Below are positions 12,793 through 51,043 of a stretch of 64,000 nt of DNA, piece after piece. The position numbers and the translations under genes were made by a program. The notes beneath the pieces were generated by a model that made no database searches, was not told where the DNA came from, and was given only the letters and a program-made list of their open reading frames with translations. Origin of the DNA: Propionivibrio dicarboxylicus (lineage in GTDB: Bacteria > Pseudomonadota > Gammaproteobacteria > Burkholderiales > Rhodocyclaceae); NCBI RefSeq assembly GCF_900099695.1, contig NZ_FNCY01000002.1, positions 124,001-188,000 on the forward strand. Direction: 5' to 3'. How positions within the stretch are numbered: position 1 is the first letter of the stretch; each line of letters starts with the position of its first letter.

Positions 12793-13059
12793 GAGCCTAT
12801 TTCGGCAGGGCTCGCGGGCTGCGTTGTCGATAGGGGCGGATGGATGCAAGGCGCGAGGCGCAGCGCAGGGTTGTTCCATGCGCAAGCGGAGCAACGCCAC
12901 AGACACCGCCCCTATCGGCAACCCGAAGGGCCGCTTCGCTGCGGGAGGCAGCGCAAGGCGTGGGCGATGAGGTGGAGTTACTCTCCACGAATCGACCGCA
13001 ACGCAGCGATGCGCCCGCAGCGAAGCGGCTCGGCCCACGATCCCTACCGAAATAGGCTC
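12793..13059. repeat. 267-bp palindrome-ended structured element, copy 1
   Basis: Noncoding element bounded by a perfect 13-bp inverted repeat GAGCCTATTTCGG (12793-12805, partner 13047-13059); the arms stay similar for about 26 bp. Inside are nested stems: 12828-12839 with 12906-12917 (12 bp perfect), hairpin 12863-12883, 12931-12945 with 13014-13028 (15 bp perfect), and hairpin 12972-12988. Unpaired motifs GCAAGGCGCG, GCAACGCC and GGCAACCCGAAGGGC (12917-12931) recur in the second copy at 50775. It directly abuts the stop codon of the DUF2721 gene and fills most of the 12683-13059 gap. Short reading frames across it have no coding signal. Confidence 0.85.
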
Positions 13060-13494
13060 CTAATGCGTCACGTGTGTACCGACGCTGACACCGAGATAGA
13101 CTTCGCGCAAAAAAAGCCCGAGCGCGGCAATGACGGCGCACAGCGCGAGAATGAAAACGATGGCGACGCCCTTCGAAAGATCGACCGAAATCAGCGCACC
13201 GAGGAAGGCGCCGATCATCACGAGACAAATCAGCAGCGCCGACAGCACGGCGAAAAAAATGCCGAGATACGACAGATGGGCACGCAGGCTCAAGGTCCGC
13301 AACTCGAGGTCGCACTCCTCGTCGATCGCCGGATTCTCGCCCCGCCGCTGTTCGAGCACCTTGCGGCGACGATCGACGATGCGGCCGAGACGGGTGTTCA
13401 TCGCATTGATCATCGTCGCGATCGAGGTCAGCAGGAAAACCGGCGCCACCGACAGCTGGATGACATGCGAAATATCATTGACATGCAATTCCAT
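13060..13494 (-). CDS. DUF2721 family membrane protein
   Basis: A 144-residue membrane protein of unknown function. The family hallmark, a near-invariant stretch reading LSVAPVFLLTSIATMINAM followed by TRLGRIVDRRR, lies near the N terminus, and two more hydrophobic helices lie in the C-terminal half. The ATG at 13494 is chosen because GGAG sits 8 bases upstream. It follows the CNNM/CBS gene by 25 bp on the same strand and so is probably co-transcribed with it. Its stop codon is immediately followed by the structured repeat element. No function can be assigned. Confidence 0.8.
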   Translation of the reverse strand: MELHVNDISHVIQLSVAPVFLLTSIATMINAMNTRLGRIVDRRRKVLEQRRGENPAIDEECDLELRTLSLRAHLSYLGIFFAVLSALLICLVMIGAFLGALISVDLSKGVAIVFILALCAVIAALGLFLREVYLGVSVGTHVTH

Positions 13495-13519
13495 GAGCAA
13501 GGCTCCAGAAAACGGAAAA

Positions 13520-14824
13520 TCAGATCGCCGCGTCGTCGTCCGGCAAGCGTGTCAGCAGCACCTTGTCGACCCGGTTCTTGTCCATATCGACAACTTCGAA
13601 ACGGCAACCGGCCGCCTCGAAATGATCGGTAACGCCGGGGATGCGGCCGAGCACGAACATCACCAGCCCGCCCAGCGTGTTGAAGGCGTTCTCGTCCTCG
13701 CCCGGCAAATTCTCCTCGATCCCGGCCACCTGCTTCAGCCGTTCGATCGACAAGCCGCCATCGACCAGCCAGGAACCGTCCTCGCGCTGCACGACGTCGG
13801 GCGCCTCGCCGCTATCGGACGAAGGCAACTCGCCGACGATCGAGGTCAGCACATCGGTCAGCGTCACCAGTCCCTGCAATTCGCCGTATTCGTCGACGAT
13901 CAGCGCGCATTGCTGCCGCGAGGAACGGAAGCTCTCGAGCAACAATGTCGTGCTGACGCCTTCCGGCACGTACAGCGGCAAACGCAGATGCTGCTCGATG
14001 TCGAGCTTTTCGCCAGCCAATGCCGGCCGCAGCAGATCGGCGGTACGCAGTATCCCGACGACATGATCGAGACCGTCGCGGCAGACGATGACGCGCGTGA
14101 AGGGCGACTCGGCCACTTTGGCCCGCAGCGTCTCCTCCGAGTCTTCGAGGTCGAGCACATAGATGTCGTTGCGATGCGTCATGATCGCGCCGATGCGCTG
14201 CTCGTCAAGGCGCAGGACATTGGAAACGATCGCCTGTTCGCTCTCGTGAAAGACGCCCGCCTCGGCGCCCTGCTCCATCAGCACATTGATCTCGTCGTCG
14301 GTCACCGGCGGCTCGTCGCGATTGCGCGTGCCGATCACGCGCAGCACCAGGGTCGATGACGACGACAACAGCAGGACCAGCGGCCGCGCCGCGCGCGCCA
14401 GGAAATTCATCGGCGCCGCCACCAGCGCCGCGATCGCTTCGGGCGCCAGCAGACCAAGACGCTTTGGCACCAGCTCGCCGATCACGACGGAAAAATACGT
14501 CAGTCCGACGACCACCAGCGTCAGCGCAATGCCGCGCGCATAGGGAGCGAGAAATGCGAATTGCTCGAGCCAGCCGGTCAGCGGGTCGGCCAGTGCGCCT
14601 TCGCCGATCGCGCCGCTGAGAATGCCGACGGTGGTGATGCCGATCTGGATCGTCGACAGGAAGCCCGACGGTTCGTTGGAAAGTTCGAGCGCACGCTGCG
14701 CGCCGAGACTGCCGTCATCCGCCAGTTTCTGCAGACGCGCCTTGCGCGACGACACGACGGCGATTTCCGACATTGCCAGCACGCCGTTGAGCAGCACCAG
14801 GAAAACCAGCAGCAGCAATTCCAT
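13520..14824 (-). CDS. CNNM/CBS-domain protein (CorC/HlyC family)
   Basis: A 434-residue integral membrane protein of the kind often called hemolysin or CorC-like, now linked to Mg2+/Co2+ transport. The layout is an N-terminal CNNM transmembrane domain (about residues 1-185), a CBS pair (about 200-330, with VLDLEDS and LIVDEYGELQGLVTLTD), and a C-terminal CorC_HlyC domain (about 345-425). The start is the ATG at 14824; a TTG just upstream has no better ribosome site. Transcribed with the DUF2721 gene. Ion specificity is inferred from the family. Confidence 0.88.
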   Translation of the reverse strand: MELLLLVFLVLLNGVLAMSEIAVVSSRKARLQKLADDGSLGAQRALELSNEPSGFLSTIQIGITTVGILSGAIGEGALADPLTGWLEQFAFLAPYARGIALTLVVVGLTYFSVVIGELVPKRLGLLAPEAIAALVAAPMNFLARAARPLVLLLSSSSTLVLRVIGTRNRDEPPVTDDEINVLMEQGAEAGVFHESEQAIVSNVLRLDEQRIGAIMTHRNDIYVLDLEDSEETLRAKVAESPFTRVIVCRDGLDHVVGILRTADLLRPALAGEKLDIEQHLRLPLYVPEGVSTTLLLESFRSSRQQCALIVDEYGELQGLVTLTDVLTSIVGELPSSDSGEAPDVVQREDGSWLVDGGLSIERLKQVAGIEENLPGEDENAFNTLGGLVMFVLGRIPGVTDHFEAAGCRFEVVDMDKNRVDKVLLTRLPDDDAAI

Positions 14825-14918
14825 CAAGAAGGCAGATTCCGAAAGGACAGGCCTTGATTATAGGGGATCGCGCCGCACGCGCGAAACAAAGGCACGGGCG
14901 GCGATCAACAAGAGCGCA

Positions 14919-15890
14919 TCATGCCAGCGCTTCGACGGCGACAATGGCCTTGGCCTGGTTGAAGTCATCGGCATAGCCGCTGGCGTACAGACAGCACGCC
15001 AGTTGATTCGCCAACGGTGCCGGCATCGCCACCGTGCCGGCCAGTACCGCCTGCATCCACGTTACCGTCGAATGCACATCGCATTGCTCGGGCAGATGCG
15101 GCATCGCGCGCAGGCTTTCGTGCTCGGCGTCGAAAAGCAGATCGATGGTGCCGTCATGCAAGTACTCGATACGCGGCCGACGCTTTGGATTGGCGACGGG
15201 TTCGCCCTCGGTCGCACGCAGGAGCAATGCCGTCGCCCCAAGTTTGGACAGCAACTCGCGCATCAACTCCAGATATTCCGGATGCGTCGCAGCGGCAAGT
15301 AACAAGCCCTTGCCGGCGAAAGGATCGAGCATCTTGACGAGACTGTGCGCCGAGTTGCGCAGACCGAGGCGGCTGCGGGCGGTCAGGAGTTGCGCCAGGC
15401 CCGGCGATATGACCGAGAGCGGCACAAAGGTCACCGCCCCCTCCTTCAGATGCTGATTGGCATGCGCCCGACTGGTCACCGGCATGATGCCGAGCTCGCG
15501 CAGGATCTGCGCCGTCGTCACCCGACCATAGCCCTCGATCAGACCGTGGATCAGTACCGGCACGCCGAAACGTTGCAGCAACAGCGCAAGCAGGGGCGTC
15601 AGGTTTGGCCCCTTGCGGGCGCCGTTGTAACTCGGGATGACCACCGGACGCAGGCGGTCGCGCGGCAGGTCGAACGTGGTCAGGCGCTCGTTCGCCGCCG
15701 CCATGAAGCCGGCCATCTCGTCGATGACCTCGCCTTTCATGCGTAGCGCGATCAGAATCGCACCCAGCTCGATATCGGGAACGCCGCCATCGAGCATCGC
15801 GCCGTAGAGTTGCTGCGCCTCGGCAAACTCGAGGTCGCGTGCGCCTTCGCGGCCGCGCCCGATTTCCCGGATGAAATGTGCAAAATTCAT
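14919..15890 (-). CDS. ybiB: YbiB, TrpD2-like nucleic-acid-binding protein
   Basis: A 323-residue member of the anthranilate phosphoribosyltransferase fold (glycosyltransferase family 3) that lacks the tryptophan-pathway role. E. coli YbiB is known as a DNA-binding TrpD homologue. An N-terminal helical domain (to about residue 75) is followed by the alpha/beta domain with IPSYNGARKGPNLTPLLALL and a GYGRVTT loop. GGAG lies 5 bases before the ATG. No trp genes are nearby, which supports the YbiB assignment. A small palindrome TTGTCTATGACAA lies upstream at 15909-15921. The 232-bp gap 15891-16122 to sspB holds nothing else clear. Confidence 0.85.
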   Translation of the reverse strand: MNFAHFIREIGRGREGARDLEFAEAQQLYGAMLDGGVPDIELGAILIALRMKGEVIDEMAGFMAAANERLTTFDLPRDRLRPVVIPSYNGARKGPNLTPLLALLLQRFGVPVLIHGLIEGYGRVTTAQILRELGIMPVTSRAHANQHLKEGAVTFVPLSVISPGLAQLLTARSRLGLRNSAHSLVKMLDPFAGKGLLLAAATHPEYLELMRELLSKLGATALLLRATEGEPVANPKRRPRIEYLHDGTIDLLFDAEHESLRAMPHLPEQCDVHSTVTWMQAVLAGTVAMPAPLANQLACCLYASGYADDFNQAKAIVAVEALA

Positions 15891-16122
15891 GTCCGCTCCG
15901 CTCTTGGATTGTCTATGACAAAGACCTGTTTGCTGCGTACTGGTTTCGCAAAAAACACAGCAACAGACGTGCCACCCATCAAAAACAGGTATTTAAGTCA
16001 TAAAACCGGAATTTTCGGTACCGCGACGCGCCATTCTGGTGCGCCACTCGGCCAGACGGCCGACTCGGTGCGCCCAATGGACGCCGGTCCGGCATCGGAC
16101 CCGCACCGGGCAAAAGATGCGC

Positions 16123-16533
16123 TTACTTGATGCGCTGCAGCTTCGGGCGATTCGGCGACGGCGGCGGCTCGGTGGGCTCGGTGGATTCCGGGCTCGTGTC
16201 GCCGGTTTCCGTCGACGGCTTCGACTCGGTCTCGAAGGACATGCCGACGCCATTTTCCCTGGCGTAGATGGCCGCGACATTGTCGATCGGCACGTACAAC
16301 TCGCGCGCGACGCCGCCAAAACGGGCCTGGAAGGTGATTTCCTCGTTGCCGATATGCAGGTGTCCGGTCGCCTCAAGGCCAACGTTCAGGACGATCTGGC
16401 CGTCCTTGACGAATTCGCGCGGCACCCGCGCCCGCCCATCCGGAAAGACTGAGATGTAGGGGGTAAACCCGTTGTCACAACACCACTCGTGAATGGCGCG
16501 CAGCAGATAGGGTTTGGTCGATGGCAGATTCAT
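16123..16533 (-). CDS. sspB: ClpXP specificity-enhancing adaptor SspB
   Basis: A 136-residue adaptor that hands ssrA-tagged and other substrates to ClpXP. The folded domain covers residues 1-105, with the conserved ARFGGVARELYVPIDNV stretch that forms the tag-binding groove. A flexible acidic and proline-rich linker follows, then the C-terminal ClpX-binding tail RPKLQRIK. It follows sspA by 57 bp, but a strong terminator hairpin sits in that gap, so sspB should be made at a lower level than sspA or from its own promoter. GGAA precedes the ATG. Confidence 0.92.
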   Translation of the reverse strand: MNLPSTKPYLLRAIHEWCCDNGFTPYISVFPDGRARVPREFVKDGQIVLNVGLEATGHLHIGNEEITFQARFGGVARELYVPIDNVAAIYARENGVGMSFETESKPSTETGDTSPESTEPTEPPPSPNRPKLQRIK

Positions 16534-16546
16534 GGCGTTCCGGAAG

Positions 16547-16579
16547 AAAAAACGTCCGCCCGGTCACCCGGACGGACGT
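16547..16579 (-). terminator. Intrinsic terminator between sspA and sspB
   Basis: On the minus strand a hairpin with a 7-bp outer stem (ACGTCCG at 16552-16558 with CGGACGT at 16573-16579) and a CCGG/CCGG inner stem is followed by six U residues (complement of 16547-16552). It lies directly after the sspA stop and before sspB, so it probably attenuates sspB expression. Confidence 0.8.
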
Positions 16580-16590
16580 CGATACGTCGA

Positions 16591-17187
16591 TCAGCGGCGC
16601 ATGGCCTTTTCCGACGGCGTCAGCGCGTCGATGTAGCCCTGGCGGCTGAAGATCCGCTCGGCATACTTCATCAACGGCGCCGCCGACTTCGGCAGTTCGA
16701 TGCCATAGTGGTCGAGACGCCAGAGCAGCGGAGCGATGGCGACGTCGAGCATCGAGAACTCCTCGCCCAGCATGTGCTTCTGTTTGACGAAGATCGGCGC
16801 CATTTCGGTCAGCCGGTCACGAATGATCTGACGCGACTTGTCGGCCGTCTTGAGATTCTTCTCGAGCGCCTCGATGTGCGCGAAAACTTCGCGTTCCATC
16901 GTGATCAGCAACTGGCGCGCCCGCGCGCGCATGATCGGATCCGGCGGCATCAACTGCGGATGCGGGAAACGCTCGTCGATGTACTCGTTGATGATGTTGG
17001 GCTCATACAGGATCAGGTCGCGCTCGACGAGCACCGGCACCTTGCCGTACGGATTGGTGACAGCGATATCCTCGGGCTTGCCGAAGAGGTCGACGTCGAT
17101 TACCTGAAAGTCCATCCCCTTTTCGTAGAGGACGATGCGGCAACGCTGACTGAACGGGCAAGTCGTGCCCGAATAAAGGTTCATCAT
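16591..17187 (-). CDS. sspA: Stringent starvation protein A
   Basis: A 198-residue glutathione-S-transferase-fold protein that binds RNA polymerase and supports starvation and acid survival. An N-terminal thioredoxin-like domain (about residues 1-80, CPFSQRCRIVLYEKG, then GKVPVLVERDL) is followed by the all-helical GST-C domain. I start at the ATG ATG at 17187 because GGGA lies 8 bases upstream; an in-frame upstream extension has no ribosome site. It sits 113 bp after petC, a neighbourhood (bc1 then sspA-sspB) that is typical of beta- and gammaproteobacteria. A terminator follows it. Confidence 0.92.
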   Translation of the reverse strand: MMNLYSGTTCPFSQRCRIVLYEKGMDFQVIDVDLFGKPEDIAVTNPYGKVPVLVERDLILYEPNIINEYIDERFPHPQLMPPDPIMRARARQLLITMEREVFAHIEALEKNLKTADKSRQIIRDRLTEMAPIFVKQKHMLGEEFSMLDVAIAPLLWRLDHYGIELPKSAAPLMKYAERIFSRQGYIDALTPSEKAMRR

Positions 17188-17300
17188 GGTCAATATCCCG
17201 AAAAAACAAACCGGCATCGCTACAGCGGGCGGTGATTTTCCGCTCGCCGGCGATGCCGAGACCTGAAAGCAGGTGGCTTACAGCCGTAATGATACCCGAT

Positions 17301-18026
17301 CTACTTGATATCCTTCCAGAATTCCTTTTTCAGCGCGTAGGAAACCCCGAAAAGCACGAGCAGGAAGAGCAAAACGCCGACCCCGACCTGACGCCGGAAG
17401 GCCGCCGACGGCTCCGCCGCCCAGACCAGGAAACCGACGAGATCGGCCACTTGTTTGTCGTATTCGGCTTCGGAAAGCTGGCCGGGAACGCCCGGCACGA
17501 TCTTCTTGGCCGTCGCGTCGAATTCAGGCTGGCCCTGCAATTCCCACAGCACATGCGGCATGCCGACATTGGGGAAAAGCGTGTTGTTCCAGCCGGTCGG
17601 CCGCTGCGCGTCGCGGTGGAAGGAGCGCAGATAGGTGTAGAGCCAGTCGGCGCCGCTACCGTCCGCCGAGGCGCGGGCACGGGCGACGAGCGAAAGATCG
17701 GGCGGCGCCGCGCCGAACCAGAGCTTCTGCTCGCCGGTACGCGCGGCAACGCGCATCGGCTCGCCGATCTTGTCGGCGCTGAACATGAGATTGTCCTGAA
17801 CCTGCTGCTCGTTCAGCCCAAGCTCGGTCAGCCGCTTGTAACGCACGAAGCTCATGCCGTGGCAGTTGAGACAATAATTGACGAAGAGGCGTGCGCCATT
17901 CTGGAGCGCGGCCTGATCGCCCTGGACATCCGGCGCCCGATCGAGGTGCGCGCCGCCCGCGGCGAACACCGCCAGGGGCAGCAGGAGAATCGCCGTCAGG
18001 AAAGACTTCAGCATGCGAGTTTTCAT
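17301..18026 (-). CDS. petC: Cytochrome c1 of the bc1 complex
   Basis: A 241-residue membrane-anchored cytochrome that passes electrons from the Rieske centre to soluble cytochrome c. A cleavable signal peptide (about residues 1-24) precedes the periplasmic domain with the single haem site C52-x2-C55-H56 in YCLNCHGMSF. The probable axial Met is in the KIGEPMRV stretch, and a C-terminal membrane helix (about 205-227) ends in a basic tail. The ATG overlaps the petB stop by one base (TAATG), giving tight coupling. The larger in-frame opening upstream overlaps petB and is not used. Confidence 0.95.
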   Translation of the reverse strand: MKTRMLKSFLTAILLLPLAVFAAGGAHLDRAPDVQGDQAALQNGARLFVNYCLNCHGMSFVRYKRLTELGLNEQQVQDNLMFSADKIGEPMRVAARTGEQKLWFGAAPPDLSLVARARASADGSGADWLYTYLRSFHRDAQRPTGWNNTLFPNVGMPHVLWELQGQPEFDATAKKIVPGVPGQLSEAEYDKQVADLVGFLVWAAEPSAAFRRQVGVGVLLFLLVLFGVSYALKKEFWKDIK

Positions 18027-19327
18027 TAGAAGGTCACCCTTTCCGGAACCGGTTTGCACTTGTCGATCTTCGAATACCAAGGCATCGCCAGGAAGAATCC
18101 GAAATAGATCAGGCTGCAAATCTGCGAAATCAGTTCGCTCGCCGGCGACGGCGGCTGCGTGCCGAGATAGCCGAGCGTCAGAAAGGCAACGACGAAGACC
18201 GCCAGGAAGGACTTGTAGATCGGCCCGCGGTAGCGGATCGACTTGGCCGGGCTGCGATCGAGCCAGGGCAGGAAGGCGATGATCATCACCGACGCGCCCA
18301 TCGCGACGACGCCCCAGAACTTCGCATCGATGCCGAAGATCGGCCAGACGACGGCGCGCAGGATCGAATAGAAGGGCGTGAAGTACCACACCGGCGCAAT
18401 GTGCGGCGGCGTCTTGAGCGGATCGGCCGGGAAGAAGTTGTTGTACTCGAGGAAGTAGCCGCCGCCTTCCGGAGCGAAGAAAACGACGCCGGCAAAGACG
18501 ATGGCGAAGACCACGACGCCAACGATGTCCTTGACCGTGTAATACGGATGGAAGGGGACGCCGTCGAGCGGAATGCCCTTTTCATCGAGGTGTTCCTTGA
18601 TCTCGATGCCGTCGGGATTGTTCGAGCCAACCTCGTGCAGCGCCATGACGTGCGCGGCGACGAGTCCGAGCAGCGCCAGCGGCACGGCGATGACATGGAA
18701 GGAGAAGAAGCGGTTGAGCGTCGCATCGCCGATCACGTAGTCGCCGCGAATCCAGAGCGAGAGAGGATCGCCGATCAGCGGGATGGCCGAGAACAGATTG
18801 ACGATCACCTGCGCGCCCCAGAACGACATCTGCCCCCAGGGCAGCAGATAGCCCATGAAGGCTTCCGCCATCAGCACCAGGAAGATCAGCACGCCGAACA
18901 CCCAGATCAGCTCGCGCGGCTTGCGGTACGACCCGTAGAGCATGCCGCGGAACATGTGCAGATAGACGACGATGAAGAAGGCCGAGGCGCCGGTCGAATG
19001 CATGTAGCGTATCAACCAGCCCCAATTGACGTCGCGCATGATGTATTCGACGCTGGCGAACGCCGCCGGCACGCCGTTGGCATTGAGCGCGGCGTCGGGC
19101 TTGTAGAACATCACGAGGAAGATGCCGGTGGTCAGCTGGATGGCCAGCACGACGATGGCGAGCGAACCGAAGAAGTACCAGAAGTTGAAATTCTTCGGTG
19201 CGTAGTATTCGGCAAGATGCCCGCGCCACAAAGAGGTGGCCGGGAAGCGCGCATCGAACCACTCGAGCACGTTGCCGAGCAGCGAACCGTCCGATTTGTA
19301 TTTTTCGTAGCCGGAATTCGACGCCAT
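18026..19327 (-). CDS. petB: Cytochrome b of the bc1 complex
   Basis: The 433-residue core membrane subunit with both quinone sites and two b haems. Haem-ligand histidines are visible in the helix reading GWLIRYMHSTGASAFF and in the AHVMALHEVGSNNPDG helix. The quinol-oxidation motif usually written PEWY is PVWY here (in APVWYFTPFYSILR). Eight membrane helices fit the length. It lies between petA (2-bp gap) and petC (1-base overlap) in a standard petABC operon. Confidence 0.96.
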   Translation of the reverse strand: MASNSGYEKYKSDGSLLGNVLEWFDARFPATSLWRGHLAEYYAPKNFNFWYFFGSLAIVVLAIQLTTGIFLVMFYKPDAALNANGVPAAFASVEYIMRDVNWGWLIRYMHSTGASAFFIVVYLHMFRGMLYGSYRKPRELIWVFGVLIFLVLMAEAFMGYLLPWGQMSFWGAQVIVNLFSAIPLIGDPLSLWIRGDYVIGDATLNRFFSFHVIAVPLALLGLVAAHVMALHEVGSNNPDGIEIKEHLDEKGIPLDGVPFHPYYTVKDIVGVVVFAIVFAGVVFFAPEGGGYFLEYNNFFPADPLKTPPHIAPVWYFTPFYSILRAVVWPIFGIDAKFWGVVAMGASVMIIAFLPWLDRSPAKSIRYRGPIYKSFLAVFVVAFLTLGYLGTQPPSPASELISQICSLIYFGFFLAMPWYSKIDKCKPVPERVTF

Positions 19328-19329
19328 GA

Positions 19330-19926
19330 TCAGGCTCCCTTCCTGTCTTCGCCGATCAGGATGCGCGTATCCGACAGATACGTGTGCGGCGGAATTTCAA
19401 GGTTGGTCGGCGCCGGCTTGCTCTTGAAGACACGCCCGGCAAAGTCGAAGGTCGAACCGTGGCACGGACAGAGGAAACCGCCCTGCCAGTCGGCCGGCAT
19501 ACCGTCTTCGGCACCCTTCTTGAATTTCGACGACGGCGAGCAGCCGAGGTGCGTGCAGATGCCGATGGCAACGAGCATGTTGGGCTTGATCGAACGCGTC
19601 GCGTTCTTGCAATACTCCGGCTGCTGCTTGACCTCCGACTTGGGATCGGCCACCGCGCTCTCAAGCTTCGGCAACGTTTCCAGCATTTCGGGGCTGCGGT
19701 TAAAGATCCACACGGGCTTGCCGCGCCATTCGACCGTCATCAACTGGCCCGGGGCCAGGTTGCCGACATCGACCTCGACCGGCGCACCGGCCGCCTTGGC
19801 ACGTTCCGACGGCAACATGCTGGAAAGAAACGGCACCATCGCCGTCACCATACCCGCACCGCCCACGGCCGCCGTCGCGACGATCAAACGCCGCCGGCCA
19901 CAATCCACCTTGCCTTCTTGACTCAT
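19330..19926 (-). CDS. petA: Rieske iron-sulfur subunit of the bc1 complex
   Basis: A 198-residue 2Fe-2S protein anchored by an N-terminal helix after a twin-arginine-like CGRRRLIVATAA segment. The cluster ligands are in CTHLGC and CPCHGS, with the SxFDFxGRVFKS stretch of the cluster domain downstream. The start at 19926 (MSQEGK) is favoured because GAGG lies 9 bases upstream; an in-frame ATG at 19935 overlaps that site. First gene of the petABC operon, with a good sigma70 promoter 50-80 bp upstream. Confidence 0.95.
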   Translation of the reverse strand: MSQEGKVDCGRRRLIVATAAVGGAGMVTAMVPFLSSMLPSERAKAAGAPVEVDVGNLAPGQLMTVEWRGKPVWIFNRSPEMLETLPKLESAVADPKSEVKQQPEYCKNATRSIKPNMLVAIGICTHLGCSPSSKFKKGAEDGMPADWQGGFLCPCHGSTFDFAGRVFKSKPAPTNLEIPPHTYLSDTRILIGEDRKGA

Positions 19927-19976
19927 CAGACCCATCCTCTGAACGACGCTGCCGATGTGGTAAGCATTAGCAGCCG

Positions 19977-20004
19977 ATTATACGCAAAAGCCCCTAGCGA
20001 TCAA
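19977..20004 (-). promoter_or_regulatory. Sigma70 promoter of petABC
   Basis: On the minus strand TTGATC (20004-19999), a 16-bp spacer and a perfect TATAAT (19982-19977) point toward petA. It lies just after the recR stop, which marks the boundary between the dnaX and pet operons. Confidence 0.7.
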
Positions 20005-20041
20005 GGCAGCGTTCATGCCAAAGACCTATTCTGCGACGCCG

Positions 20042-43240: not shown

Positions 43241-43264
43241 AATAAAAAATGGGCAAATGCCCAT
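43241..43264 (-). terminator. Leader attenuator 2 upstream of rimP
   Basis: On the minus strand, stem ATGGGCA/TGCCCAT (43264-43258 with 43255-43249) is followed by a U-rich tract (ATTTTTTATTT), ending 8 bases before the start codon. It is one of two tandem terminator-like hairpins in the leader. Confidence 0.65.
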
Positions 43265-43268
43265 CCAG

Positions 43269-43290
43269 AAAAAATGCCCGCAAAGGGCGC
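43269..43290 (-). terminator. Leader attenuator 1 upstream of rimP
   Basis: Minus-strand stem GCCC/GGGC (43288-43285 with 43279-43276) is followed by ATTTTTT. It lies between the rimP promoter and the second leader hairpin. Confidence 0.6.
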
Positions 43291-43307
43291 TCCGAAAAAT
43301 CGGACGG

Positions 43308-43336
43308 ATTATACCCGTTATTCTTCGCCCCGACAA
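43308..43336 (-). promoter_or_regulatory. Sigma70 promoter of the rimP-nusA-infB operon
   Basis: Minus-strand TTGTCG (43336-43331), a 17-bp spacer and a perfect TATAAT (43313-43308). Transcription from here would run through both leader hairpins before reaching rimP. Confidence 0.75.
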
Positions 43337-43441
43337 TGCCAACATGCAATTAAGCTGCTGTTGAAAAAACCCTTTTTTTCGATTTCTGCAATTTTCCATC
43401 GGTGCGGCGGCATCAAAACAGCGCCGCACCGAAGCCCGTCG

Positions 43442-44416
43442 TCAGCGCGGACGTCGCTTCACCGGCGTCCGTTCCGGCGCCTCGAGACCGAACTCGGCCA
43501 TCAGCTTGGCTACGACCGCGTCATCGAGTTCCTGCACCTGGCCGCGCTTGAGGTTGGGCGGCAGCACGAAAGGACCGTAACGCACACGCATCAACCGGCT
43601 GACGGTCACGCCGACGGCCTCGAACATGCGGCGCACCTCGCGGTTGCGTCCCTCGAACAAGGAGACGCGGTACCAGTGATTGGCGCCATCGCCGCCCGCA
43701 TCCTGAAACGACGAGAACTGCGCCAGCCCGTCCTCGAGTTCGACACCGTCGAGCAGGCGCTTTTGCGCCTCGACGCCGAGATCGCCGAGCACCCGCACCG
43801 CGTATTCCCGGACCAGTTGGTAACGCGGATGCATCAAGCGGTTGGCCAACTCGCCCGACGTCGTGAATAGCAGAAGACCGCTGGTATTGAAATCGAGCCG
43901 GCCGACCGCTACCCACCGCGCCCCGGAAAGCCGAGGCAGCGACGTAAACACGCTCGGACGGCGATCCGGATCGTCGCGCGAGACGATTTCACCCTCCGGC
44001 TTGTGGTACAGGATGACGCGCGGCAGGCGGTTGGAAAACTTCAGATTGACGAGCCGACCGTTGACCTTGACGCGATCGCCGGGACTCGCCGACTGCCCGA
44101 GCGTCGCCGTTTCGCCATTCACCGTCACCCGCCCTTCGCCGATCAGTGTCTCCATTTCGCGACGCGAGCCGATCCCGCTTTGCGCCAGCAGCTTCTGCAG
44201 GCGCTCGGGCTTGGCCGGCGCCACCATGTGCCGCTCGCGCTTGCCGAGATCGGTGGGTGGACGGCGCGGACGCTCGACTGCCGGCGCAGCATCTTCGGGC
44301 GTCGGACGCCCGGCCGGTGCCGGCACGCGCTCGGCGGGGCCGCCACGACGCCCGGTCGTGCGGCGGGAATCGGCCTGAGGCGACCGGAACGGGGTTTTCT
44401 TCTGATTATTCGGCAT
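43442..44416 (-). CDS. rluB: 23S rRNA pseudouridine synthase, RluB type
   Basis: A 324-residue RsuA/RluB-family enzyme. A basic, proline-rich N-terminal extension (about residues 1-68) precedes an S4 domain ([19 protein letters not shown]) and the catalytic domain with D175 in [14 protein letters not shown], then [16 protein letters not shown]. RluB (position 2605) is favoured over RsuA because of the context after scpA-scpB. Its start overlaps the scpB stop by 11 bases. Confidence 0.88.
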
Positions 44417-45137
44417 GAACGAGGTCCAGTGTTTGATTCATCATATCGAGTTGCGGAAGCTCGGACACGCTGCGCAAGCCGAGATCGTCGAGGAATTGCC
44501 GGGTCGTCGCCAGCAGCGCCGGGCGCCCCGGCGTATCGCGATGCCCGACGACATCGACCCAGCCGCGCTCCTCGAGCGCCTTGATCACCTGCGAAGACAC
44601 CGTCACACCCCGGATATCCTCGATATCACCGCGGGTTACCGGCTGACGGTAGGCGATGATTGCCAGCGTTTCAAGCACGGCTCGCGAGTACTTGGGCGGC
44701 TTTTCCGGATGGAGCTTTTCGAGGTAGGGCATGAACTCGGCCCGAATCCGGAAACGCCAGCCGCTCGCCAGTTGCAGGAGTTCGAGCGGGCGCGTCGCCC
44801 ATTCGGCGCGCAGTTCGTCGAGCAGCACGCGCAGCGCGTCGCCCGACATTTCGCCGTCGAAAACCCGCCGCAACTCCGACATCGACAAGGGCTGCGTCGA
44901 ACTCAGCAGCACTGCCTCCAGAATGCGCTTGATTTCGCGGGTGTTGTCCGGGGGATCGGGCGGCGACGGTTCGAGCGCGAATTCGGAAGCATCCGGAATC
45001 ACCTGCCCGTCCGGCGCGATCATCGCCGCCGGCACCTCAGGCGCCGTCGCTGCGTCCGTCATCGTCTCCGGCGTCTCCACTGTCGGCGGGTTCATCGGGC
45101 TCGGCATCGTTTCCGTGGTGTGGTTCGTTTCGTCCAT
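44406..45137 (-). CDS. scpB: Segregation and condensation protein B
   Basis: A 243-residue partner of SMC-ScpA in chromosome condensation. The two winged-helix domains begin near residue 65 ([19 protein letters not shown]) and include the family stretch [24 protein letters not shown]. The first 60 residues are low-complexity and overlap the scpA coding region by 101 bases in another frame. GAGG about 8 bases before the ATG at 45137 supports that start; later in-frame ATGs could shorten it. Confidence 0.9.
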
Positions 45138-46020
45138 CGGCCAACCTCACATAGATGGGAGCAAAAGCTTGTTCCTGGGTCAATACGAGCAAATGCTCGC
45201 GCGCCAGTTCGAGCATGGCGAGAAAATGCACGACGACGACCGGCGCCCCCTTGGCGGCATCGAACATCTGTGTGAATTCGACGAAGCCGCCGTTGTCGCG
45301 CAGCAGACGAAGGATTTGCCCCATGTGCTCGCGCACCGACAATTCCTCGCGCTGGATCGTGTGGTGCGTGTGCAGCTTGGCCTGGCGCAGGATCGCATTC
45401 CAGGCATCGCGCAAATCCTCGGGCTGGACTTCGGGCAATCGCTGCATCAGCGACTTCTCGACCCAGACCTCGGCCCAGTCGAAATCGCGCTCGGCCTGCG
45501 GCAAGTCGTCGATCCGCGCTGCCGCGAGCTTCATCTGCTCGTACTCGATCAGGCGCCGCACGAGTTCGGCGCGCGGGTCCTCGGCCTCGCCATCTTCATC
45601 GAGGCGCGGCTTGGGCAACAGCATGCGCGACTTGATCTCGATCAGCATCGCCGCCATGACCAGGTAATCGGCCGCCAGTTCGAGGTTCTGCGAGCGCATC
45701 GCCTCGACGTAGGTCAGGTACTGTACGGTCAGCGGCGCCATCGGAATGTCGAGGACATTGACGTTGGCCTTGCGGATCAGATACAGCAATAGGTCGAGCG
45801 GCCCTTCGAAAGCGTCGAGCATCACCGCCATCGCGTCGGGCGGGATGTACAGGTCGAGCGGCATCTGCTGCATCGGCTCGCCGTAGATGCGCGCGAGCGG
45901 CTCCGCCTCGGTCTCGAGAGACGGGGACGCCTGCGCCTCGGCCACGGCCTCCGCCGTGCCCTCTGCGGGCATCTCCGCTGCGTCGTCCGCCAAAGGCGCG
46001 CTGATCGTCGTTTCGCTCAT
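45037..46020 (-). CDS. scpA: Segregation and condensation protein A
   Basis: A 327-residue kleisin that bridges the SMC dimer. The conserved N-terminal SMC-binding part begins after a 60-residue acidic lead and shows [23 protein letters not shown] and [21 protein letters not shown]. The C-terminal winged helix includes [20 protein letters not shown]. The last 33 residues are acidic and are read in a second frame as the start of scpB. It follows trpS by 9 bp. Confidence 0.92.
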
Positions 46021-46029
46021 GCGTGGAGT

Positions 46030-47232
46030 TTAGGCGTAATTGAGGCCCATCGCCGCGCGCACGTCGCGCATCGTCTCGCGCGCCAGCACCCCGGCCTTGC
46101 GATTGCCTTCGGCGATGATGTCGCGCACCAGCGCCGGTTGGTCCAGGTATTTCTGCGCCCGTTCCTGCATCGGCGCCTGTTCGCGCAGGATGCCGTCGAT
46201 CACCGGCTGCTTGCACTCGATACAGCCGATGCCGGCACTGCGGCAGCCCTTCTGCACCCAGCCCTTGCACTCGGCATCGGAATAGACCTGATGCAGTTGC
46301 CAGACCGGGCAACGATCGGGTTCGCCCGGATCGGTGCGGCGCACGCGCTGGGTGTCGGTCGGCATGCGCTTGATCTTCTGCGTCACCGACGCCGCATCCT
46401 CGCGCAGCGTAATCGTGTTGTTATAGGACTTGGACATCTTCTGGCCATCGAGCCCCGGCATTTTCGAGGCTTCGGTCAGGAGATAGCCCGGTTCGACGAG
46501 AATCGTCTTGCCGGTGCCTTCGAGATAGCCGAGCAAGCGCTCGCGGTCGTCGGCCGAGAGTTGCGGCAATTCGGCCAGCAGCGCACGGCCCTTGGCCACC
46601 GCCTCCTTGTCGCCGTCCTGCTGGAAGCGCGTGCGCAAATGTTCGAAGGAGCGCTTGTTCTTGCTGCCGAGCCGGGCGACGGCTTCCTTGGCCTTTTCCT
46701 CGAAGCCCGGTTCGCGCCCGTACATGTGGTTGAAGCGCCGCGCCAGTTCGCGGGTGAATTCGACGTGCGGAATCTGGTCTTCGCCGACCGGCACCTTGTC
46801 GGCCCGGTAAATCAGGATATCGGCGCTCATCAGCAACGGATAGCCGAGGAAGCCATAGGTCGTCAGGTCCTTGCCCGACATCTTTTCCTGCTGATCCTTG
46901 TAGGTCGGCACGCGTTCGAGCCAGCCGAGCGGCGTCATCATCGAGCACAGGAGGTGCAGTTCGGCATGCTCGGGCACCTGCGACTGGATGAACAGCGTCG
47001 CCTTCTCGGGATCGACACCCGCCGCCAGCCAGTCGATGATCATGTCCCAGGTCGCCTTCTCGATACCCTGCGGATCGTCGTACTGGGTCGTCAGCGCATG
47101 CCAGTCGGCGACGAAGAACAGGCAGGGATACTCATGCTGGAGCTTGATCCAGTTTTTCAGCACGCCGTGATAGTGGCCGAGATGCAGGCTGCCCGTGGGG
47201 CGCATGCCGGAGAGGACGCGTTCTGCGAACAT
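46030..47232 (-). CDS. trpS: Tryptophanyl-tRNA synthetase with a predicted 4Fe-4S site
   Basis: A 400-residue class I synthetase that charges tRNA-Trp. The HIGH-type HLGH is at 17-20 and KMSKS at 265-269. An inserted helical block at about residues 175-243 makes it longer than the 330-residue E. coli type. The C-terminal part has cysteines C308-x21-C330-x6-C337-x2-C340, close to the C-x22-C-x6-C-x2-C cluster site described for Thermotoga TrpRS. It lies between a site-2 protease gene (14-bp gap) and scpA. Confidence 0.93.
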   Translation of the reverse strand: MFAERVLSGMRPTGSLHLGHYHGVLKNWIKLQHEYPCLFFVADWHALTTQYDDPQGIEKATWDMIIDWLAAGVDPEKATLFIQSQVPEHAELHLLCSMMTPLGWLERVPTYKDQQEKMSGKDLTTYGFLGYPLLMSADILIYRADKVPVGEDQIPHVEFTRELARRFNHMYGREPGFEEKAKEAVARLGSKNKRSFEHLRTRFQQDGDKEAVAKGRALLAELPQLSADDRERLLGYLEGTGKTILVEPGYLLTEASKMPGLDGQKMSKSYNNTITLREDAASVTQKIKRMPTDTQRVRRTDPGEPDRCPVWQLHQVYSDAECKGWVQKGCRSAGIGCIECKQPVIDGILREQAPMQERAQKYLDQPALVRDIIAEGNRKAGVLARETMRDVRAAMGLNYA

Positions 47233-47246
47233 GGTGTCGGTTCGTT

Positions 47247-47900
47247 TCAGTTGAGTTGGAAGAGGGAAAGAATAGTCTGCTTGAGCAGCGAAACCAAGGG
47301 CCAGACGGTGACGTCGAGCACATTGAAATACATCAGCGCGAGTAGGATGAAGAAGCCCCAGCGCTCAAGGCGGGCGAAGCGGATCGCCAGCGACCACGGC
47401 AGCAGGCTGACAGCAATGCGACCGCCGTCGAGCGGCGGTAGCGGAATCAGGTTGAGCGCCATCAGCGCCAGATTGATGCCGATACCGACCTGGCACATCA
47501 GCGCCAGCGGATAGCTGAATTGATTGACCGGAATCAGGGTATCGACCTTGAGCAGCGCCGCCCAGCCGAGCGCCATGACGAGATTGACCGCTGGCCCGGC
47601 CGCCGCGACCCAGAGCATGTCGCGCTTCGGATGGCGCAGCCGGCTGAAATCGACCGGCACCGGCTTGGCCCAGCCGAACAGGAAGGGACTATTGACGAGA
47701 TAGAGCAGGATCGGCAGCAGGATCGTCCCGAACAATTCAACGTGGCGCAAGGGATTCAGGCTGATGCGCCCGGCCAGCCAGGCGGTCGGATCGCCAAAAT
47801 AACGCGCGGCATAACCGTGCGCCGCTTCGTGCAGCGTGATGGCCAGCACCACCGGTAGCGCGGCGATCGACAGCGTCTGGATGATCGAGGCGAACTCCAT
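47247..47900 (-). CDS. Site-2 protease family (M50) membrane metallopeptidase
   Basis: A 217-residue integral membrane protein with the zinc motif H24-E25-x2-H28 in the first helix and the NLIPLPPLDGG second motif near the C terminus, with about five membrane segments. Members cleave membrane-embedded substrates; this small YwhC-like class has no defined target. The ATG at 47900 has GGAG 5 bases upstream and lies 2 bases after the yciO stop. Conserved neighbourhood with trpS, scpA and scpB. Confidence 0.87.
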   Translation of the reverse strand: MEFASIIQTLSIAALPVVLAITLHEAAHGYAARYFGDPTAWLAGRISLNPLRHVELFGTILLPILLYLVNSPFLFGWAKPVPVDFSRLRHPKRDMLWVAAAGPAVNLVMALGWAALLKVDTLIPVNQFSYPLALMCQVGIGINLALMALNLIPLPPLDGGRIAVSLLPWSLAIRFARLERWGFFILLALMYFNVLDVTVWPLVSLLKQTILSLFQLN

Positions 47901-47902
47901 GC

Positions 47903-48529
47903 TCACTCCAGGCCGAAAGGTTCGAGCGCCCCGCGCCCGGCCCGCACCAGCTGCGGCGGCAGGCTGGTCAGATCGACGACCGTCGTCGGCTCGGTACCGC
48001 ACCAGCCGCCATCGAGAATCAGGTCGACATGATCGTCGAGCCGGTCCTGGATCTCCCAGCCTTCGGTCAAGGGCGCTTCGTCCCCCGGCAGCATCAGCGT
48101 CGAGGTCAGGATCGGTTCGTCGAACACCTCGAGCAGCGCCAGCACGGCCTTGTGATCCGGGATACGCAAACCGATCGTCTTGCGCTTCGGATGCAGCACC
48201 CGGCGCGGCAACTCGTGCGTCCCTTCGAGAATGAACACATAACTGCCCGGCGTCGTCGCCTTGAGCAGGCGGTACTGGGCATTATCGACGCGCGCGAACT
48301 GGGCGATCTGCGAGAGATCGCGACACATCAGTGTCAGGTGGTGCCGGTCGTCGAGCGCGCGGATGCGGCGAATGCGTTCCATCGCGTCCTTGTCGCCAAC
48401 GCGGCAACCGAGCGAATAACAGGAATCGGTCGGTATCGCGATGACGCCGCCCGCCTGCAAGACCTCCGCCGCCTGCGCCAGGAAACGCGGCTGCGGATCT
48501 TCCGGATGAATCGACAGATAACGTGCCAT
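47903..48529 (-). CDS. yciO: YciO, Sua5/YrdC-family protein
   Basis: A 208-residue relative of the threonylcarbamoyl-AMP synthase TsaC/Sua5. The nucleotide-binding fold shows GGVIAIPTDSCYSLGCRVGD, RHHLTLMCRDLSQIAQFA and KTIGLRIPDH. YciO proteins have weak or different activity compared with TsaC, so the exact role is open. It starts 1 bp after the stop of the PHP-domain gene and is followed by the site-2 protease gene. Confidence 0.88.
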   Translation of the reverse strand: MARYLSIHPEDPQPRFLAQAAEVLQAGGVIAIPTDSCYSLGCRVGDKDAMERIRRIRALDDRHHLTLMCRDLSQIAQFARVDNAQYRLLKATTPGSYVFILEGTHELPRRVLHPKRKTIGLRIPDHKAVLALLEVFDEPILTSTLMLPGDEAPLTEGWEIQDRLDDHVDLILDGGWCGTEPTTVVDLTSLPPQLVRAGRGALEPFGLE

Positions 48530-48530
48530 G

Positions 48531-49364
48531 TCAGAAAGACTCCCACACGGGCGTCAAGCCCTCGGGCAGGCTGGCCACCCGACCGAGATCGGCATAGCTC
48601 TCGTCCGGCCCGTGAAAATCGGACCCGCTGGTCGCCATGAAGCCATATTCGCGGGCGATGCGGCTGTAGGTGCCGACATCGTCGACCGAATGACTGCCGG
48701 ACACGACCTCGATAGCCTGTCCGCCGCATTGTTTGAATTCGTCCAGCAGCTTGCGCATCTCGCCGCGCGAGAACGCATAGCGGGCCGGGTGTGCGACGGC
48801 GGCAATGCCGCCGGCACCGACGATCCAGCCGACGGCTTCGGCCACCGTCGGCCAGCGATGTTCGACATAACCGGGTTTGCCCGGCACCAGATAGGAATCG
48901 AAGACGCTGCGAACATCCTTGCAGACACCGGTAGCCGCCAAATGGCGCGCGAAATGCGCGCGGCTGATCAGCTTGGGATTCTCGGCAAAGCGCATGGCGC
49001 CCTCGAAGCACCCGGCAATCCCGATTTTTTCAAGCGACTCGGACATGCTCCGGGCACGCACCAGGCGTCCGCTGTGGATCGATGCCAGCCCCCCGGTCAG
49101 CGCCGCGTCGTCGGCATCGAAACGATAACCGAGCAAATGCACCTGCGCGCCGCCCCATTCGATCGAGATCTCGACGCCATTGACGAAGCGCATGCCGACC
49201 GTCTCAGCCTCCTGACGCGCCCGCGCCAGTCCGCTGACACCGTCGTGGTCGGTCAGCGACAGCAACGAGACGCCGTTGCCGGCGGCGCGGCGCACCAGCG
49301 CCTCGGGCGACAACAAACCGTCCGATACGGTGGAATGACAATGAAGATCAACGATGAGCTGCAC
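48531..49364 (-). CDS. rnm: PHP-domain 5'-3' exoribonuclease, RNase AM type
   Basis: A 277-residue PHP metallo-phosphoesterase like E. coli YciV/RNase AM, which trims 5' ends of rRNA precursors. Metal ligands are in DLHCHSTVSDG (H8, H10), LTDHDG, NGVEIS, AHPARY and GSDFHGP. The start is taken as the GTG at 49364, six residues before the first metal His-containing strand; the in-frame region farther upstream is arginine-rich and looks noncoding. First gene of a leftward run rnm-yciO-protease-trpS-scpA-scpB-rluB. The 229 bp before it hold no clear promoter. Confidence 0.87.
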   Translation of the reverse strand: MQLIVDLHCHSTVSDGLLSPEALVRRAAGNGVSLLSLTDHDGVSGLARARQEAETVGMRFVNGVEISIEWGGAQVHLLGYRFDADDAALTGGLASIHSGRLVRARSMSESLEKIGIAGCFEGAMRFAENPKLISRAHFARHLAATGVCKDVRSVFDSYLVPGKPGYVEHRWPTVAEAVGWIVGAGGIAAVAHPARYAFSRGEMRKLLDEFKQCGGQAIEVVSGSHSVDDVGTYSRIAREYGFMATSGSDFHGPDESYADLGRVASLPEGLTPVWESF

Positions 49365-49593
49365 CAGGAATCGCCGGAAAATTAAACCCTCGATGATAGC
49401 ACAGACCCCTCTCCGAACACGCCGCACACTGCCCGGCGACGGGGCGACGACGCGCCTGCCGGCGAGCACTGGCGGCTAGCGTCACGAAAGTTTCCTTCGG
49501 CAAGGAAGAGCGGAAACGGGTCGGCCGACCCAAACGCAGGATGCCGATCTCAGCGTCGCGAAGACCGGCCGGCACGCCCCTATCCGGGAAGAA

Positions 49594-50535
49594 TCACTGC
49601 GGATAGCGAACGAGCTGTCGCTCGCCGGCGCGCTCCGAAAAACGGTTCATCGCCGTCAGGCGTTCCTGCTCCAGTTGAAAGGGCCGTCCGCCATACACCG
49701 ACGCCGACAGCCAGGCAATTTCCTCGTCGAAAACCGCCTTCCGGATCGCCTTGGCCCAGACTTTCTTGTCCGGATTCCAGCGATAGCCGCGTTGTCTGAG
49801 TACATCCTTCGATTCAAACGGCGAGCCCAGCGCGGAAATCCGGATCTCCGCCTCACGGGCATTGACCAGCAAGGCCTGCATGGCCTTCGTCCCGGACGTC
49901 GGCAAGTCCGCCTGCAGCACTTCGAGCAAGGCCTGGCAATCGATCGAAGCCCGGTGGCCGGTGAAGTGGAAGCCGCAGCGATAGGCGAGAAACTCGAGCT
50001 TGGCCGAAGAGATACCTTCATCGCTCCACGGCACCTGCTGGAACGAACACGCCCAGGCCTTAGTGGCAAAGACCGGCCAGCGTTTTTCGACGAAGGGCCG
50101 GTCGAAGCCGGCATTGTGCGCGACGACGAGCGCGACCGGCGCCAGCAGGCGGGCGACTTCGTCATCGTCGATACGCTTGCCGGCCACCATCTCGTCGGTG
50201 ATGTGGTGGATCTGCGTCGACGCCGGCGGAATCGGCATGCCGGGATCCTCAAGCTGATTGAAGACCTGCAGCACGCGATACGCCTGGCCGGTATCGGGCG
50301 CGATCTCGACGAGCACCATGCCAAGTTCGATTACCTTGTCGGCCTGCTGATCAGTGCCGGTGGTTTCGGTATCGAGAATGGCGACCGTGACGAGTTTCTC
50401 CGGGCGCTCGCCGACAGCGAAGGACTCACGCGCAACGAGTGGTCGGATGAGGCGATAATCGGCACCGCCAAGCCAGCGCGAAATCGTTTCGATCTGGTCG
50501 GGCGTCGGCGGATTCGCAAGGTCGATGACAGGCAT
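49594..50535 (-). CDS. DEDDh 3'-5' exonuclease with a C-terminal extension
   Basis: A 313-residue DnaQ-fold exonuclease. The active-site set is D55 and E57 (ILDTETTG), D145 (AHNAGFD), H194 and D199 (GHRASIDCQ), which defines the DEDDh class. After residue 225 a small module contains GYRWNPDKKVWAK, a stretch seen at the ends of several DnaQ-like exonucleases of unknown role. It is not the polymerase epsilon subunit by context. It stands alone between rnm and the repeat element upstream of the efflux genes. Confidence 0.82.
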   Translation of the reverse strand: MPVIDLANPPTPDQIETISRWLGGADYRLIRPLVARESFAVGERPEKLVTVAILDTETTGTDQQADKVIELGMVLVEIAPDTGQAYRVLQVFNQLEDPGMPIPPASTQIHHITDEMVAGKRIDDDEVARLLAPVALVVAHNAGFDRPFVEKRWPVFATKAWACSFQQVPWSDEGISSAKLEFLAYRCGFHFTGHRASIDCQALLEVLQADLPTSGTKAMQALLVNAREAEIRISALGSPFESKDVLRQRGYRWNPDKKVWAKAIRKAVFDEEIAWLSASVYGGRPFQLEQERLTAMNRFSERAGERQLVRYPQ

Positions 50536-50774
50536 GGGGAATCAAGACGATGTAATAACAATACGTCATGGTACCCATTTGTCCTTGCCAGCGCACGCCA
50601 GCACCGAAAAACGAAGAAGCGAAGTAGATACGCACGCCATTCGGGACGCCGACAGCCCGGCTTGCACGGCAAAATACAGCCCGTGCAATTACGAACGCTT
50701 ACATACCGGCCACGATAAATGTGATAAACAGGTAGTTTGCGACGACCAGAGCGCTTCACATCGAATTCAACATC

Positions 50775-51043
50775 AGGGGGTGTTCACAATCAACCGCTGG
50801 ATTGCGTTGCACCCTGCGCTGGAACGGCTGCAAGGCGCGTGTCGCAGCGAAGGGTCACTCCCTTCGCAAGACACGCAACGCCGCAGACGACCGGCGCAGG
50901 GGCAACCCGAAGGGCAAGGGATTGGCAGGGTGCATCGCGTTGTTGCCGGATGCTTGCATGGATGGCCATGCGGCGCATCCGACGCCTAGCGCTGCGCCCT
51001 GCCAGTCCCTTGCGCAACCAACGCTTGATTGTGAACACCCCCT
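50775..51043. repeat. 269-bp palindrome-ended structured element, copy 2
   Basis: Noncoding element bounded by a perfect 19-bp inverted repeat AGGGGGTGTTCACAATCAA (50775-50793, partner 51025-51043). Inside: 50812-50822 with 50891-50901 (11 bp, one G-T), hairpin 50847-50867 (8 bp perfect), 50916-50938 with 50989-51011 (23 positions, 20 paired plus 2 G-T), 50947-50953 with 50975-50981, and hairpin 50956-50971. Motifs GCAAGGCGCG, GCAACGCC and GGCAACCCGAAGGGC (50901-50915) match copy 1 at 12793. It ends 17 bp before the outer-membrane-factor ATG. The rest of the 525-bp gap (50536-50774) shows nothing recognisable. Confidence 0.85.

Follow-up and report, generated by a model that had tools for sequence, protein, structure and literature searches.

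Two families of gene-free, miniature inverted-repeat elements in Propionivibrio dicarboxylicus share a folded core with elements of distant bacteria

Introduction

Bacterial miniature inverted-repeat transposable elements (MITEs) are commonly regarded as remnants that insertion sequences (ISs) leave behind locally, REP/REPIN elements are intergenic palindromes, and integron attC sites are imperfect hairpins, conserved in shape over sequence, that act on one strand and carry GTTRRRY/RYYYAAC core sites. A review considers that ISs are thought to be the main source of bacterial MITEs and states that the Correia element can invert (PMC10969869). Correia elements (CREE, NEMIS) have been described as non-coding, with inverted terminal repeats, a TA (sometimes CA) target and no transposase, their mobilising mechanism being given as undetermined (PMC2649163), and CREE have been stated to be unique to Neisseria (PMC5039591). 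The repeat R6 of Pseudomonas fluorescens measures 177 bp and has 34-bp repeats (PMC2718517). Here, we describe two elements, A and B, that lie in a 64,000-nucleotide stretch of the Propionivibrio dicarboxylicus genome (assembly GCF_900099695.1, contig NZ_FNCY01000002.1, positions 124,001 to 188,000; this whole stretch is called the window) and that had been pointed out in an earlier note made from the letters of the window.

Elements A and B are gene-free, MITE-like elements that belong to two families of one genome and share one folded core. As in MITEs, they have terminal inverted repeats and a target-site duplication, and they are short, non-coding, dispersed, multicopy and mobile. In distant bacteria, the same core lies between many kinds of unrelated ends, and evolution keeps mainly its fold.

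Results

Throughout, G000 denotes the genome of the window and G026 that of a sister species, while L-numbers denote loci read in various genomes. The terminal repeat of element A, GAGCCTATTTCGG, is found at 12793-12805 (+) and 13047-13059 (-), with 0.09 occurrences expected by chance, and that of element B, AGGGGGTGTTCACAATCAA, at 50775-50793 (+) and 51025-51043 (-), with 0.00 expected. The elements are 267 bp (A) and 269 bp (B) long and have a common order of parts, i.e., terminal repeat, stem2, module M1, stem2', a mini-hairpin CCC-GAA-GGG, stem4 enclosing a second module, stem4' and terminal repeat (Table 1). Both structures are present where the earlier note had placed them, far beyond chance; as it had described, every stem differs between A and B and each pairs with its own partner arm, and the compensated change that it had seen in the inner hairpin between A and B is real. 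The second module of copy A had been overlooked; it is oriented the same way as M1 of this copy, unlike the usual inverted arrangement.

With regard to the ends, the 13-mer GCAACCCGAAGGG occurs 18 times in G000, always inside an element of one of two kinds. Family A, read around terminal-repeat matches, has at least 36 distinct copies ending in GAGCCTATTTCGG, among which 6 are 267 bp, 16 are 175-177 bp and 14 are 44-67 bp long; family B has 8 rows ending in GGTGTTCACAATCAA-type repeats, comprising five of 261-262 bp (inner bounds) and three solo palindromes. Save for a few mismatches, the terminal repeats are constant within each family. The earlier note had taken A and B for two copies of one family with free ends, and had named other copies sharing one fixed terminal repeat as what would speak against this; just such copies make up each family, and the ends of A and B differ because the two belong to separate families. 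Among the 36 family-A copies, 20 are flanked left and right by identical 3 bp (13 TTA, 6 TAA and 1 TGA in genome orientation), which marks a TNA target duplication; the other 16, window copy A among them, show no exact 3-bp flank match. The target of family B, as judged from the flanks and from an empty site, is TA. Solo terminal-repeat palindromes of 34-67 bp are found for both families in G000 (L023, L044-L050, L052, L056-L058, L061, L064-L066, L077 and L079), and several of them keep intact target duplications.

A and B have in common a folded module of 56 nt, GCAAGGCG-stem-GCA-hairpin-AAG-stem-CAACGC, the usual setting of which is an element of about 269 bp with a second, inverted module. 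From A, B and elements of genomes G058 and G028, we took the constant letters GCAAGGCG N6 GCA (hairpin) AAG N4-7 CAACGC N GCA as a scan pattern; this pattern fixed 23 letters, including one partner letter of the six-pair stem, so that the invariance of these letters is built in and the informative features are limited to loop lengths and to the stem letters left free. Among 300 genomes of the order, 22 contained the module, and the reversed pattern gave 0 matches. A scan of named genomes identified at least 117 stretches with the module; the two scans overlap in genomes, and a module found more than once in identical form entered the count a single time. Of the 117 listed stretches, 112 are from Proteobacteria; most of these are beta- or gammaproteobacterial, with genera that include Acidovorax, Polaromonas, Pseudomonas, Stutzerimonas, Thiobacillus and Methylobacillus, and three are alphaproteobacterial (L160, L180 and L189). 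The taxonomic spread is a lower bound, as it refers to the matches listed, which also include five from outside the Proteobacteria, namely four from Clostridia (L117, L128, L159 and L199) and one from Planctomycetota (L175). Most of these five are from metagenome bins, so misbinning is possible, and single non-proteobacterial matches may be chance events. In the Clostridia, the free stem is paired at 6/6 positions in L117, L128 and L199 and at 5/6 in L159. The first three have another conserved inner loop, GAGCATAATGGA(G/C)ATATATGGTC, with a fully paired stem that is different in each, and they sit in short elements of about 163-181 bp.

Covariation in the module stems is strong. From 152 distinct modules, 64 were dropped as near-duplicates and 1 because of another stem length, and in 63 of the 87 that remained all six positions of the free stem are paired, as compared to a mean of 4.9 and a maximum of 14 with shuffled right arms (1000 trials). 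A covariance model, R1, was built from the 32 modules, out of 88, that have exactly 56 nt. In this alignment, 92.2% of cells are paired (69.3% when shuffled), 130 cells are changed on both sides (38 when shuffled), and such both-sided changes occur in 13 of the 18 pairs; the covariation score is 0.617, versus 0.169 for shuffled arms and 0.114 or less in every slid register. Copy A was scored with R1 from outside the 32 modules, while the module of copy B is itself inside the model. The internal loops GCA/AA and CAA are invariant in 32 of 32 aligned modules, their letters having been fixed by the search pattern. As related sequences can beat shuffles without any structure, we relied on how large the effect is and on the wobble test described below. 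That the elements are a real type, in which stems vary while structure stays, is borne out by this covariation. No Rfam 15 match falls on the elements, either in the window or at 18 loci, whose five matches lie elsewhere; when the element at L020 was compared with Rfam at E up to 1, two matches were found, both far below threshold.

A strong inverted repeat encloses the module in 120 of the 152 distinct cases; this outer repeat spans 257-284 bp in 86 cases, 153-195 bp in 22 and other lengths in 5; in the remaining 7, with spans at or below 108 bp, the repeat is stem2 and not the ends. The terminal repeats of 53 deduplicated elements form 29 clusters (70% over 16 nt), with a mean identity of 0.29 between representatives. 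TA is present on both sides of 23 of these elements and 9 more share 3 bp, the boundaries having been placed by a script that favours TA. Length and the order of stem2, module and stem4 recur across unrelated ends. At 27 of 54 loci, which are a hand-chosen subset, R1 (built from left modules only; E up to 1) detected a partner module 98-114 nt away, inverted in 26 cases and in the same orientation in L206. In the very copy-rich genome of Paracidovorax wautersii (G439; L190 and L194), one terminal repeat has 156 matches, with many listed pairs about 270 bp apart as well as 42-bp palindromes. Several modules in genome G089 lie at most 200 bases from contig starts, and these hairpins may break assemblies; a 120-bp perfect inverted repeat around the module in L125, which reaches the edge of the locus, is possibly an assembly artefact.

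If the stems were kept as double-stranded palindromes, or by copying of one arm onto the other, G.T and A.C mismatches should be equally frequent. The three counts made to test this used 73, 53 and 44 elements, flank being sufficient in 73 of 88. The left arm (stem2 and stem3) contains 81 G.T and 16 A.C mismatches, with more G.T in 47 elements and more A.C in 7 (sign test, about 2e-8). By comparison, the terminal repeats show 50 G.T and 38 A.C, and the split by element (23 to 15) is not significant. In the right-hand stem4 there are 7 G.T and 28 A.C (4 to 19 elements, p 0.003), a reversal that would follow from a right module working on the opposite strand. Under six settings for deduplication and stem detection, the stem2 bias holds (p 0.0066 or below) and the terminal repeats remain without bias (p 0.16 or above); with a mild mismatch penalty, the stem4 bias gives p 0.0022 to 0.0072. 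The excess of G.T over A.C in the left arm is the mark of selection on a single-stranded fold, and we conclude firmly that selection acts on the left-arm stems, module included, in their single-stranded folded form and in the orientation of the module itself; for the right arm, such selection on the opposite strand is likely. The suggestion of selection on structure in the earlier note is supported by this strand-specific bias.

The other suggestion made there, that one arm is rewritten from the other, corresponds to a process already known, in that template switching by DNA polymerase homogenises the arms of inverted repeats and inverts spacers (PMC8604942) and, according to the title of a further paper, can create and maintain RNA hairpins (PMC8794818). 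In an orthologous pair of family-B copies, L021 (G000) retains the GCA/AA internal loop while L098 (G026) has lost it, its left arm having turned into a perfect complement of the right arm. In L075, the core lies flipped between the arms of stem2; the second module is flipped in window copy A when compared with L020, and in L206 when compared with the arrangement that is usual. Arm rewriting is hence seen, but it looks like an occasional mutation process and not like the source of the difference between the families. As template switching can erase loops, the fact that they persist argues for selection, but the search pattern itself required the loops.

For evidence of mobility, the flanks of A and of B were joined without the element and searched for in 28 genomes of the genus. 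The copy-B site in G026 is contiguous and empty (521 bp versus 520 of the query), and is most simply explained by arrival of copy B after the split from G026, precise loss in G026 being the alternative. At the copy-A site, G026 has about 55 extra bases, which form a short palindrome with A-type ends and TTA on both sides. At another orthologous site, both flanks of which can be aligned, G026 has a 197-bp copy (L094) and G000 has 51 bp (L052), a pair that is best read as collapse; most simply, short palindromes can arise through internal collapse of longer copies.

Gene context was tabulated in 45 rows chosen by terminal-repeat match, which are not a full census (L047 was counted twice and the family-B copy L010 was left out), with genes called by a codon-usage script rather than taken from annotation. 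The stop codon of a gene lies at most 3 nt from the element end in 16 of the 45 rows, and 2 rows fall inside a called gene. Where both neighbours were called and neither spans the element, 13 pairs are convergent, 15 tandem and 5 divergent. Since TNA targets include stop codons, harmlessness may explain the placement at stop codons. Relatives of the L131 element are found on 4 plasmid records and of the L109 element on 1, with no annotated feature listed beneath them; copy B has no relatives on the plasmid records searched.

In the search for a mover, 97 terminal-repeat 16-mers gave no same-ended pair 600-4000 bp apart at any of the loci examined; helpers may be located elsewhere or have diverged ends. 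The Y1 transposase domain (PF01797) has 0 matches in G000, while it is present in 18 of the 22 module-bearing genomes (counted by eye) and, over the whole set of 300 from the order, in 180. A Y1/RAYT transposase as the required mover was rejected, as G000 is rich in copies yet lacks it. The TA, TNA and YTAR targets, together with the G-rich ends, recall what we take to be features of IS5-family insertion sequences. The best reading is a trans-acting DDE transposase that the genomes examined have lost or carry in divergent form; an enzyme that reads structure is possible. Truncated DDE_Tnp_1 insertion sequences lie at the ends of contigs C23 and C37 of G000 (L251 and L252) and are identical over 568 bases starting GATTCTGTTGAAAAACTC.

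The coordinates of both elements are given in Table 1. Copy A reaches the stop codon of an open reading frame of 146 residues, and copy B sits between a gene for a 3'-5' exonuclease and one for a NodT-type efflux outer membrane protein, just upstream of the latter. To the left of copy A, at 11538-12718 (-), two adjoining short proteins match parts of the chromate transporter family below curated cut-offs. The window also contains a tandem glycine riboswitch (57239-57436) and a ZMP/ZTP riboswitch (54795-54893), both above Rfam thresholds.

Table 1. Parts of elements A and B, in positions of the window
Feature	Position	Strand	Basis or remark
Element A, long form of family A	12793..13059	+	Terminal-repeat matches and family comparison; same site in G026 holds a short form of about 55 bp
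A, left terminal repeat, outer part	12793..12814	+	Fixed within family
A, stem2 5' arm, CGATAGGGGCGG	12828..12839	+	Pairs with 12906-12917
A, module M1	12846..12901	+	Covariance model R1, 61.6 bits, E 8.7e-17
A, stem2 3' arm	12906..12917	+	Pairs with 12828-12839
A, mini-hairpin CCC-GAA-GGG, after stem2	12922..12930	+	Loop letters variable among relatives
A, right-arm stem4 5' arm	12931..12945	+	Pairs with 13014-13028
A, second module M2	12953..13008	+	Model R1, 22.2 bits; inverted relative to M2 of L020 (- strand), loop flip
A, stem4 3' arm	13014..13028	+	Pairs with 12931-12945
A, right terminal repeat, outer part	13038..13059	+	Repeat matching
Element B, family B	50775..51043	+	Terminal-repeat matches and family comparison; G026 site empty
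B, left terminal repeat	50775..50800	+	Repeat matching
B, stem2 5' arm, CCCTGCGCTGG	50812..50822	+	Pairs with 50891-50901
B, module M1	50830..50885	+	Model R1, 76.7 bits; sequence itself among the model's 32
B, stem2 3' arm	50891..50901	+	Pairs with 50812-50822
B, mini-hairpin CCC-GAA-GGG	50906..50914	+	Stem reading
B, stem4 5' arm	50915..50930	+	Pairs with 50997-51012
B, second module M2, degenerate, opposite orientation	50937..50990	-	Sequence reading; weak R1 match 50969-50990 (-), 12 bits, E 0.27
B, stem4 3' arm	50997..51012	+	Pairs with 50915-50930
B, right terminal repeat	51018..51043	+	Repeat matching

Discussion

We favor, with a probability of roughly 55%, an explanation in which the elements are MITE-like members of one superfamily, moved by a DDE helper in trans, with a module that acts as RNA and with hairpins that undergo template switching. 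The transposase, probably a cut-and-paste enzyme of the DDE type, would come from elsewhere and move the elements through their terminal repeats, and different lineages would have adopted the repeats of different helpers. The active form would be an RNA that is made when transcription of a neighbouring gene enters the element, and its most likely partner would be a conserved host protein that binds the RNA or an RNase that cuts it; we propose that insertions would be tolerated and retained for this reason. Template switching at hairpins would add homogenisation of arms, inversion of loops and perhaps collapse to short palindromes.

A number of observations weigh against this explanation. Terminal repeats were found in element-sized pairs in every set of genomes searched for a helper, but an exact 12-mer search found no IS-sized stretch flanked by them in G000 or G026; four genomes (three Polaromonas and one Burkholderiales) have no IS-sized pair with GGAAGCGCTGAA; and among the matches listed, there is no IS-sized pair in G437-G439, where an unlisted pair is possible in G439. 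The only two DDE_Tnp_1 copies of G000 are both truncated, with ends unrelated to families A and B. One-module copies, 9 of 16 of which could be judged by eye, show no preference in their orientation to the incoming gene (5 sense, 4 antisense). With regard to structure, the stem4 bias keeps its direction but is no longer significant when stems are detected strictly (p 0.078, 0.12 and 0.2), the second modules' own stems have no wobble bias (13 versus 14, by a crude fixed-offset pairing of 21 modules), and stem3 of family A is poorly paired, with 2 to 4 of 6 pairs. Finally, single-stranded DNA may be the acting form in place of RNA.

The strongest alternative, which we consider doubtful and which is drawn by analogy to attC sites, is that the module is read as single-stranded DNA by a recombinase or transposase; the terminal repeats would then be free to drift, and two inverted modules would let either strand serve. 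The strand-specific wobble bias would fit such recognition, as would the large number of copies with no same-ended helper in the genomes searched, the near-constant total length, and the many clusters of terminal repeats (29 in 53 elements, all of them module-bearing by choice of the sample). However, the matching 3-bp flanks of 20 among the 36 family-A copies point to DDE-type insertion with a staggered cut, the terminal repeats are fixed within a family and carry no wobble bias, and the copy-rich G000 lacks a Y1 transposase.

That no selection is at work, with template switching copying one hairpin arm onto the other so that stems covary by mutation alone, is unlikely and already disfavored: the mechanism is established (PMC8604942), and homogenised arms (L098) and inverted loops (L075, window copy A, L206) are seen, but it predicts equal numbers of G.T and A.C, against 81 to 16 in the left arm, and also loss of the GCA/AA and CAA loops, which are invariant in 32 modules, a weak point given that the pattern fixed these letters. 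Nested insertion, in which two unrelated MITEs each gained the same core and the matches elsewhere come from one mobile core jumping into palindromes, would fit the terminal-repeat-only palindromes of 34-67 bp in both families, but it was already weak and is very improbable given that L052 and L094, at one site, are best read as collapse, that length and part order recur across unrelated ends, and that stem2 and stem4 also differ between the families.

The module offers a handle for searches, a structure model and a strand-specific function that can be tested. The elements are also a natural data set, in which the ratio of G.T to A.C separates selection on structure from mutational correction of hairpins.

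Among described systems, the size and repeat length of R6, compared by description, fit the one-module short form. REP/REPIN-RAYT systems differ in that A and B elements are much larger and have target duplications, and in that G000 has no Y1 transposase. The likeness to attC sites is by analogy, and A and B differ from them in having terminal repeats and target duplications. The elements resemble IS-moved MITEs in being short, non-coding and multicopy, with terminal repeats and a short target duplication, and differ in that no same-ended IS was found here in the genomes searched, such a helper being usual for MITEs without strictly defining them; the available part of the MITE review does not mention strand-specific folded modules inside unrelated ends (PMC10969869). 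Topic and sequence searches of the open-access (PMC) literature listed no description of the module, and the superfamily, which is of wide spread and defined by a strand-specific folded module, is apparently undescribed so far.

The closest comparison is with Correia elements. A 24-base string taken to be the Correia core had matches in 5 genomes out of 399 from the order, and these 5 belong to a single genus (g57), which we take to be Neisseria. The copies in this genus contain GCAAGGCG-AGG-CAACGCCG and ACAAGGCGACGAAGCCGCAGAC, or close variants, which are the outer letters of the module, plus a second, abridged module. When R1 was applied to two Correia-like loci, L253 was matched (E 0.007 over 336 kb) and L257 was not. 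Correia elements are like the elements described here in being non-coding, in their inverted terminal repeats and in a TA target as in family B, and a common core is possible in view of these outer module letters. They differ in having another terminal repeat (TATAGTGGATTAA, which is absent from the ends of A and B as compared with L253-L258), a described length of 69-157 bp, a module stripped of its hairpin, and promoters and IHF sites. A transcript that RNase III binds or cuts is a further mark of Correia elements. This comparison is suggestive of kinship between the A/B superfamily and Correia elements, which would run against the statement that CREE are found only in Neisseria. On a wider and more tentative reading, which is possible and which we rate below the mechanism proposed above, the elements form an undescribed structured mobile superfamily that extends from beta-, gamma- and alphaproteobacteria to some Clostridia; the selected part would be the strand-specific module in inward-facing pairs, with replaceable ends and stems, Correia elements would be an abridged local branch, and the module would be the key to movement or persistence without a helper. 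Apart from this wider reading, one folded module joins elements whose ends are unrelated and whose hosts belong to different phyla, and Correia elements may be among them.

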